A DNA stretch of 64,000 nt from positions 1 to 64,000 of the forward strand of contig JAHEKJ010000006.1 in the NCBI GenBank assembly GCA_024638385.1, read 5' to 3'. Under the pieces are notes generated by a model. That model saw nothing but the letters and a program-made list of their open reading frames with translations, made no database searches and had not been told where the DNA came from. Positions 8,798 to 11,288 of this stretch are shown one piece after another. The first letter of the stretch is position 1, and every line of letters begins with the position of its first letter. The position numbers were made by a program, and so were the translations under genes. The stretch is from Gammaproteobacteria bacterium (GTDB lineage Bacteria; Pseudomonadota; Gammaproteobacteria; GCA-001735895).

Positions 8798-8848
8798 TCT
8801 GCCTACCCGCGAAATGCAAAGTCCCGAATTCTAGCAAGAAACGCGGTC

Positions 8849-9013
8849 GCGCATGCACTTTCCCGTACCGGTAACCGGCGGCCGTACCGCATCTCCCGAA
8901 AGAACCCTCGCTCGTGCAAACCCCGCTCGAAGTGAGGGGGGTTTGCACGAACCGGGTTTCGAGCATGAGATGAGGTCTTGCCGCCGGTAACCGGTACGGG
9001 AGGATGCAAGCGC
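8849..9013. repeat. Long imperfect palindrome (~165 nt) in soxZ/mtaB intergenic region
   Basis: Arms share CCCGTACCGGTAACCGGCGGC / CCCGTACCGGTTACCGGCGGC, CATCTC and TCGTGCAAACCCC in order, converging on an inner loop near 8925-8936. Confidence 0.8.
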
Positions 9014-9052
9014 GGAAATGCGGCGCCAGAGTTCGCAAATGGTCCGGAATAA

Positions 9053-9364
9053 TCAGCGGACGCGCGCGTTGGCCTTGTCGGTGTAACCGCGGTTGTCGAG
9101 CCAGGTAATCGTGATCAGGTCGCCCCTGCGGCCCGGGATTTCGAGCGCGAGGTAGGGATTGCGCGAGACCGACCTGCCCCAGTAGGCCTGCATGACGGTC
9201 CGGCCGTTGTGGCTGACGACGAGCTCGCGAATATAGTGCGGCGGAATCTTCCTGCCGGTCTTCTTGATCTTGCGCTGTCCGGTCTCCATCGGATGCATGA
9301 CGACGCTCCTGATCCTGACCTGACCGTCGACCTCGTGCGCGCGAATCTTGATCGAGTCGGCCAC
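9053..9364 (-). CDS. soxZ: Thiosulfate oxidation carrier complex protein SoxZ
   Basis: 103 aa; IKIRAHEVDGQVRIRSVVMHPMETGQRK...IPPHYIRELVV...PYLALEIPGRRGDLITITWLDNRG. Confidence 0.88.
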   Translation of the reverse strand: MADSIKIRAHEVDGQVRIRSVVMHPMETGQRKIKKTGRKIPPHYIRELVVSHNGRTVMQAYWGRSVSRNPYLALEIPGRRGDLITITWLDNRGYTDKANARVR

Positions 9365-9367
9365 GGG

Positions 9368-9814
9368 TCAGGTCTCGCAGCCCTTGCCGCCGACGCTGAC
9401 CGCCTGCCGCCGGCTGTAGAGCTTGCCGTCGGCCTTGACCACGACCAGCACGTCGCCGCTGCCCGCCATGCGCACGCGCGTCGTGACGTAGGCCTGCGGC
9501 GTGTGCAATCGATAATGCGCCGCCAGTGGCGACGGGTTGGCGGCGACGACGATCGATATGGATTCGGTGTTGGCGAATCCGGAGCGGATGCGCACCGGCA
9601 CGAGATCCGGATGACTGGCGATCGACGGCATTTCGATGACGATCTCGTCGCTCTCGGCGATATCGGCCGTGCCGACGGTCTCGCGCAGCGCGTCGGCGAT
9701 CTTCTTCGCCTTGAAGGCTTTCTTCGGGTAGGCCGCCAGCACGCGACCCGGGATGACGCCGGCGGCCGCCGCGAGCGGTAACAAACTGGCTTGTAACAGA
9801 GTCCTGCGTTGCAT
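9368..9814 (-). CDS. soxY: Thiosulfate oxidation carrier protein SoxY-like, non-GGCGG C-terminus
   Basis: ATG at 9814; 148 aa, Tat-like MQRRTLLQ signal, SoxY fold region, immediately upstream of soxZ; ends VSVGGKGCET. Confidence 0.8.
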   Translation of the reverse strand: MQRRTLLQASLLPLAAAAGVIPGRVLAAYPKKAFKAKKIADALRETVGTADIAESDEIVIEMPSIASHPDLVPVRIRSGFANTESISIVVAANPSPLAAHYRLHTPQAYVTTRVRMAGSGDVLVVVKADGKLYSRRQAVSVGGKGCET

Positions 9815-9849
9815 ACCGTTTGCCCGCCGCGCGGGCTCGTGATTTCGAT

Positions 9850-9891
9850 CGACCGGGTTATCGGCGCGCCGCGGCAAAGCTTGAGCCGCGG
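9850..9891 (-). promoter_or_regulatory. Candidate sigma28 (FliA) promoter upstream of soxYZ
   Basis: Reverse strand CCGCGGCTCAAGCTTT-N10-GCCGATAACCCGG; -10 identical to FliA consensus; CTCAA-to-GCCGATAA spacing of 15 nt is identical to the site at 160-201. Confidence 0.6.
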
Positions 9892-9902: not shown

Positions 9903-11288
9903 TCACTCGGCGAGCAGTAGCAGGCGTTTTTCCCGCGCTTTCGATTCGGTCGCGAGATCGGCCTTGCCCGAGGCGAGAATCTGGTCGTAGAGTTTGACCG
10001 CCTGTTTCCGGTTGCCCGCAAGCCGGTGAAACTCGGCCTCGGCCATCAGGCGCAGCGCCGGGCGCCCGAGCGCGGCGTAGATTTCGGCGAGTTCGAAGTA
10101 GACTTCCCGGGTCTCGGGATGCTCGTTTTCGAGTCGGCGTGCGAGTAGCAACGCCGAGCGGTTGCGGCCCTCGAGTTTCAGCAATCGCAGCAGCCGCATC
10201 GACAGCACGTAGTCGCCGGGAAAGATATCGAGCAGGCGCCGGTAGATGAGCTCGGCCTCGGCCTCGCGCTTTAGCAGCTCGAGATTTTCGGCGTAAGCGA
10301 TGCTGTACCAGATATTCTCGCTGTCGCGTTCGTACAGCGCCGCGAGCAGGCCGTCGGCGCGCTCGTGTTCGCCCGCCTTGATCGACGCCAGCGCGCGCAG
10401 GTACTCGCTGCCCTGGGTCGGCAGATGATCGCTCGACACATATTCGAGAAAGTCCCGGAACAGCGGATAGTGATCCACCTGGTCGACCCGCGTCTTTACC
10501 GGACCGACCCGGGCGCTGGCTTCGGCAATCCGGTTGGTGTTGATCGGGTGGGTTCGCAAATACTCGATGTTGCCGATCCCGGAGCTGCCGGTCAGTCCCG
10601 CCATGATGCCGAAAAACTCGACCATGCCGTTGGCGTCGAAGCGCGCGGCGTGCATCAGTTCGACGCCGAGCCGGTCGGCTTCGTATTCGTTTTCGCGGGT
10701 GTAGTTGACCATCGCCTGCTGGCCGCCCGCGGCGCTGCCGTAGAGCACCGCCGCGCCGACCTGCGAATCGACGCCGCCGAGCAGCAGTCCGGCGATCATG
10801 CCGACGATCGCCGCGTTGCTGACCGATTGTCCCTTGCGCATCAGATCGAGCCCGTGACGCATGCGCACGTGGGCGATTTCGTGCGCCAGGACCGACGCCA
10901 GCTGATGCTGCGTCTGAGCGGCTCGAATGAGCCCGCGATTGATGCCGATATACCCGCCGGGCAGCGCAAACGCGTTGATCGAGTCGTCGCGCACGATGAA
11001 GAAGCGGTACTCGCGCACCGGGTTATCGAGCCCCGCGACCAGGCGAATGCCGAGATCGTTGAGGTAGCGGTCGAGCAGCGGATGGGTCTCGACGAGGCCG
11101 CGTTCGAGCAGGCGCTCGTAGACCGACCGGCCGAGCTTGCGCTCTTCCCCGATGTTCAGCAGCGAGTGTTCGCCGAGCTCGGGCAGCGCCGAGTTGGCGC
11201 CGCTGCCGGCGGCCGCCCCGAGCAGCAACAAGCCCGCGCCGAGCAGGACTGCCGGCCGGAGCGCTCGCAATCGGTGGATTCGCAACAT
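9903..11288 (-). CDS. bepA: M48 family beta-barrel assembly-enhancing protease (BepA/YfgC-like)
   Basis: 461 aa; signal peptide, VLAHEIAHVRMRHG zinc protease motif, C-terminal TPR-like region. Confidence 0.87.
   Translation of the reverse strand: MLRIHRLRALRPAVLLGAGLLLLGAAAGSGANSALPELGEHSLLNIGEERKLGRSVYERLLERGLVETHPLLDRYLNDLGIRLVAGLDNPVREYRFFIVRDDSINAFALPGGYIGINRGLIRAAQTQHQLASVLAHEIAHVRMRHGLDLMRKGQSVSNAAIVGMIAGLLLGGVDSQVGAAVLYGSAAGGQQAMVNYTRENEYEADRLGVELMHAARFDANGMVEFFGIMAGLTGSSGIGNIEYLRTHPINTNRIAEASARVGPVKTRVDQVDHYPLFRDFLEYVSSDHLPTQGSEYLRALASIKAGEHERADGLLAALYERDSENIWYSIAYAENLELLKREAEAELIYRRLLDIFPGDYVLSMRLLRLLKLEGRNRSALLLARRLENEHPETREVYFELAEIYAALGRPALRLMAEAEFHRLAGNRKQAVKLYDQILASGKADLATESKAREKRLLLLAE

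Follow-up and report, generated by a model that had tools for sequence, protein, structure and literature searches.

A FliA-type promoter motif in front of a divergent soxYZ pair in an uncultured gammaproteobacterial genus

Gene content of the soxYZ locus

The window, i.e. the whole 64,000-nucleotide stretch of gammaproteobacterial DNA analyzed here, carries on its minus strand a bepA-like peptidase gene followed by a pair of Sox-family genes, hereafter soxY* and soxZ*, with a putative FliA (sigma-28) promoter in the gap between the peptidase gene and the pair. The features of the locus, in the direction of transcription, are the following.

9903 to 11288, minus strand: bepA-like gene for an M48 peptidase with TPRs (Pfam Peptidase_M48), its 3′ end abutting the promoter; it adjoins soxY* in 16/16 loci
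9877 to 9884, minus strand: putative -35 element, TCAAGCTT; a TMAAGCTT-like box is found in 16/16 clade loci (two degraded or displaced), with a mean pairwise identity of 0.87
9858 to 9865, minus strand: putative -10 element, GCCGATAA, separated from the -35 element by an 11-nt spacer; GCCGATA is identical in 18/18 aligned promoters
9815 to 9857, minus strand: stretch from the -10 element to the soxY start, 43 nt here, with a predicted transcription start at about 9851 (inferred)
9368 to 9814, minus strand: soxY*, a SoxY-family gene (Pfam SoxY; below the TIGR04488 cut-off) whose product has an RR signal peptide and, by comparison of carrier arms, VGGKGCET instead of VTIGGCGG
9053 to 9364, minus strand: soxZ*, second gene of the pair (Pfam SoxZ, 99 bits; NCBIfam SoxZ_true)

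Profile matches settle the fold of both products. The SoxY domain (Pfam PF13501) scores 85.3 bits against a gathering threshold of 28.4, and SoxZ* exceeds the SoxZ_true (TIGR04490) cut-off (110 versus 76 bits). The initial annotation had described the two as a thiosulfate-carrier pair; their identity as SoxY and SoxZ stands, while the label of canonical thiosulfate carrier is ruled out for SoxY*, which falls under the cut-off of SoxY_true_GGCGG (TIGR04488; 110.2 versus 125). A canonical paralogue that passes this cut-off (166.3) is encoded elsewhere in the genome, in a cytochrome c-soxY-soxZ-soxA cluster. The GGCGG carrier arm is lost from SoxY*, and its relatives have VGRNSCGA and similar arms, mostly RNxC-like. 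A single cysteine after residue 30, near the C terminus, is found in 16/16 SoxY* proteins of the clade.

A different arrangement, bepA-cytochrome c-soxY(GGCGG)-soxZ, is observed in four relatives (G024, G027, G012, G011) and in several other gammaproteobacteria, and we infer from its wider spread that it is the ancestral one. No FliA motif was detected in the cytochrome-bearing loci of these four relatives. In the FliA-linked lineage the cytochrome gene is absent, and the short gap left (91 and 96 nt at the two loci for which it was measured) contains the promoter. The BepA tree leaves unresolved whether the locus changed once or repeatedly. Downstream of soxZ, positions 8848-9014 of the window form a 167-nt inverted repeat with arms 77% complementary (-126.5 kcal/mol for a 213-nt stretch, z -10.4), which may be a terminator or else a small mobile element; none of the other loci compared has a copy.

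The FliA-type motif and its counterparts across the genus

Between the 3′ end of the bepA-like gene and the soxY ATG at 9814, the minus strand reads TCAAGCTT TGCCGCGGCGC GCCGATAA from 9884 to 9858. The full sigma-28 -10 consensus claimed at this place by the initial annotation is indeed there, as a complete GCCGATAA. The -35 box agrees at 6 of 8 positions with TAAAGTTT, the E. coli-type FliA consensus. The spacer measures exactly 11 nt, a length shared with the fliC promoters of the genus. Transcription of soxY would be expected to begin around 9851, although this position is inferred without start-site data. A sigma-70 promoter for soxY was also considered and dropped, as none was found near the site. 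Position 6 of the -35 box (window 9879) is a C in 14/16 soxY* promoters, creating a palindromic AAGCTT, whereas T or A predominates there in the genus's other FliA sites; this preference is unexplained.

Conservation in close relatives, on which the initial annotation had made its inference depend, was found throughout: the motif precedes soxY* here and in the 15 closest orthologues of the genus (53-59% identical), i.e. in 16/16 loci. It lies 36-44 nt from the start codon in most orthologues and 30 and 64 nt in two; the sites of G021 and G025 are degraded or displaced. In an alignment of 18 promoters, comprising the 16 soxY* loci together with those of G017 and G019, identity is 0.87 for the -35 box and 1.00 for GCCGATA, and falls to 0.40 in the spacer and 0.32-0.34 in the flanks. 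Scored with a matrix built without sox sites, the 16 soxY* sites reach 17.4-24.1 bits, and the 14 scored upstream regions of canonical-type soxY genes (L057-L070) do not exceed 12.4 bits. Across loci L057-L150, strict sites occur only in L071-L073, which are the same promoters as those of G028, G015 and G001. A class-wide search of 369 genomes for the promoter pattern followed by an RR start returned nothing, but the pattern recovers just 3 of the 16 known cases, so that this negative result carries little weight as to how widely the promoter occurs outside the genus.

The genome also encodes the cognate sigma factor, whose absence would have refuted the proposal: a profile search found one FliA over the curated cut-off (TIGR02479, 262.6 bits versus 189.6, contig C96), as well as two flagellin-family genes. 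The same motif and spacer, with 1-2 mismatches to the pattern, lie upstream of its fliC, fliS, flgM, motY and two chemoreceptor (MCP) genes. With a strict matrix built from flagellar and chemotaxis sites, sox sites excluded, fliC scores 25.8 bits, fliS 24.6, and motY and flgM 22.3. The sox site, at 21.8 bits, ranks within the range of 20.4-25.8 spanned by these four and the two MCP sites. Matrix ranking in the own genome was limited to about 182 kb, picked partly for holding FliA-like sites, and was complemented by genome-wide pattern searches.

At the genus level, 19/19 flagellin upstream regions examined carry a site in which each box has 6 or more of the 8 consensus bases and the boxes are 11 nt apart. 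The strict pattern applied to 31 genomes of the genus gave 48 sites among the matches listed, against 3 for the reversed control. Many of the genes downstream of these sites serve motility, chemotaxis or signaling, among them genes for MotY, MCPs, STAS proteins, response regulator-GGDEF proteins and HDOD proteins; soxY is also found there, and some sites stand before unrelated genes or inside genes. These results define a set of FliA promoters for a gammaproteobacterial genus that is uncultured.

Further FliA-like sites were observed. One, TCAACTTT-N11-GCCGATAA on the minus strand of the window at 168-194, scores 23.0 bits and precedes an ORF truncated by the contig start; the first 44 residues of this ORF match HDOD weakly, below the cut-off. 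A FliA site is likewise present at an HDOD gene in a relative (L207; L208 has a near-identical gene). In four genomes (L180, L188, L190, L195), a FliA site lies 13-18 nt upstream of an ORF for a lipoprotein-like product of about 110 residues; the L190 product, the only one scanned, has no Pfam match.

Probable promoter activity and possible roles of the carrier

Judged from the DNA alone and in the absence of transcript data, it is highly probable that the site is a working FliA promoter that drives soxYZ as a late flagellar transcript. This confidence refers to the promoter and not to the role of the proteins, and the co-expression of soxYZ* with flagellar genes remains an inference, since neither start-site nor expression data are available. 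Our best reading is capture of a SoxYZ copy by the flagellar regulon, the substrate and partners of this copy being unknown.

The distribution of soxY* is linked to that of flagellar genes. Of the 23 genomes with any flagellar marker (FliA, FlhA or flagellin), 16 have soxY*, against 1 of the 8 that have none (Fisher p = 0.008, uncorrected for phylogeny); G019, for which only the promoter and the first codons are present at a contig end, is counted as a carrier. The genomes are draft assemblies, some of them incomplete, and absences are accordingly soft. In G017, where FliA, FlhA and flagellin were all looked for and none was found, bepA and the promoter are kept (L216, contig C90, about 1547-1780), and soxY is missing, as is the stretch of soxZ up to codon 38; by BepA sequence this genome groups with G028 and G015, both of which keep soxY*. 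The exception is G025 (87% complete), where soxY* is intact, the motif is weaker and more distant, and none of the three markers was found. G004 may have a divergent flagellar set: a single contig (C51) carries FlhA together with a FliA-like ORF that is broken up into two weak matches, and no flagellin was found.

If the promoter is real, SoxYZ* could still be an additional carrier for thiosulfate oxidation that works with SoxB and SoxXA and powers swimming, a reading compatible with capture by the flagellar regulon that we entertain only tentatively, at less than even credence. Among the 16 genomes in which soxY* has been sequenced, 13 have SoxB above its cut-off. In G001, G015 and G023, which are incomplete assemblies, soxY* is the only SoxY detected despite the presence of SoxB. 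The invariant carrier cysteine and the canonical cytochrome c-soxYZA cluster of the own genome also fit such a role. It is harder to reconcile with the disappearance of the cysteine-bearing GGCGG arm from the whole clade, and with the absence here of the cytochrome c gene that sits beside soxY in sister lineages.

In another reading, the pair has lost the arm that serves the Sox enzymes and its cytochrome partner, has left sulfur oxidation and now serves motility, for example as a periplasmic binder, sensor or carrier of sulfur compounds for chemotaxis, or as a partner of the motor or of a chemoreceptor. This too is compatible with capture by the flagellar regulon, and we consider it possible but doubtful. 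The coupling to FliA, the loss of the canonical arm, the association with flagellar genes and the decay of soxY in the relative without detected flagellar genes speak for it. On the other side, no chemoreceptor or motor gene is among the immediate neighbors examined, binding data do not exist, and five FliA-bearing relatives (G024, G027, G012, G011, G014) do without soxY*. Since several flagellated relatives lack it, soxY* is not needed for motility.

The promoter itself could be misassigned, the element being instead a site of another sigma factor or of a transcription factor that reads, e.g., the palindromic AAAGCTTT or the AAGCTT within the -35 box. The C at position 6 described above speaks for this idea, but we find it very unlikely, as both boxes and their spacing agree with the fliC, fliS and motY promoters and no sigma-70-like promoter was found nearby.

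Taken alone, the sox motif is weak evidence and near chance level: TNAAG-N14-GCCGATAA has 3 matches in the 4.25-Mb genome versus 3 for the reversed-pattern control. In E. coli, moreover, a predicted FliA site is a poor guide to binding, and most intragenic FliA sites yield no detectable transcript (PMC4183435). A lone site is therefore insufficient. With the fuller pattern TNAAGNNT-N11-GCCGATAA, the sox site is the only zero-mismatch match genome-wide, and it is its position and conservation that place it beyond chance. An accidental or inert FliA-like sequence without regulatory role is hardly tenable, because both boxes, the spacer length and the approximate position are kept in 16/16 loci while identity between the boxes has fallen close to background.

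For a FliA promoter in front of soxYZ*, a sequence of events can be proposed. Completion of the hook-basal body leads to release of FlgM, whereupon FliA RNA polymerase becomes active on late genes. By analogy with this known biology, from which the timing is inferred, FliA RNA polymerase would then transcribe the two-gene soxY-soxZ unit along with fliC, fliS, motY and the chemoreceptor genes, and cells probably make the SoxYZ* carrier only while building a flagellum. The RR signal of SoxY* suggests Tat export to the periplasm together with SoxZ*, where the cysteine on the remodeled arm would most likely load or relay a sulfur compound in swimming cells. As for the origin of the locus, the most likely path is from bepA-cytochrome c-soxYZ, with the cytochrome lost, the promoter gained and the carrier arm changed.

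We favor the view that SoxYZ* carries sulfur in the periplasm and is adapted to motile cells, and do not decide between energy supply and sensing. An auxiliary sulfur carrier specialized for the motile phase is preferred, with low confidence, over a structural part of the flagellum, and its function has not been shown. The locus differs from that of sister lineages in promoter, neighbor and carrier arm, which makes the reuse of a SoxYZ-type carrier outside the Sox cycle testable.

Relation to known systems

The sox site resembles the late promoters of FliA in its -35 TMAAG-N-TT, its 11-nt spacer, its GCCGATAA and its placement upstream of a gene start, in a genome that also holds fliA, flgM and fliC. 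It differs from them in driving a Sox carrier pair and in the C at position 6 of its -35 (TMAAGCTTT). Non-flagellar genes inside the FliA regulon have been described in E. coli, namely modA, ves, ynjH and flxA (PMC4183435); here, in contrast, the target is a periplasmic sulfur carrier and the hosts are uncultured gammaproteobacteria. A literature search, with incomplete coverage of journals, found no report of FliA-controlled soxYZ.

Among SoxY variants, soxY-S1b of Sedimenticola is similar in adjoining a bepA-type protease, and a chemoreceptor, and in being an extra copy alongside a canonical SoxY (PMC11237559). soxY-S1b is one residue off VTIGGC; soxY*, although bepA-linked, has lost the Gly-rich arm, differs at several positions and does not qualify as S1b. 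The FliA motif is absent from the two Sedimenticola loci examined, and the portion of that paper available contains no mention of a promoter analysis of soxY-S1b. SoxY-related carriers outside SoxY_true are also known as TIGR04487 (AACIE arm) and TIGR04557 (fused SoxYZ), but SoxY* lies far under both cut-offs, has an RNxC-like arm and is an unfused protein.

In Acidithiobacillus, co-occurrence has led to the proposal that flagella and Sox genes are linked, and deletion of the sigma factor gene rpoF in Acidithiobacillus caldus left almost all sulfur-oxidation genes unchanged (PMC6543871). The lineage described here shares this gene link, which in Acidithiobacillus rests on co-occurrence only. 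If the promoter reading is correct, soxYZ* would provide a direct regulatory tie between the building of the flagellum and the handling of reduced sulfur, elsewhere suggested by co-occurrence alone.
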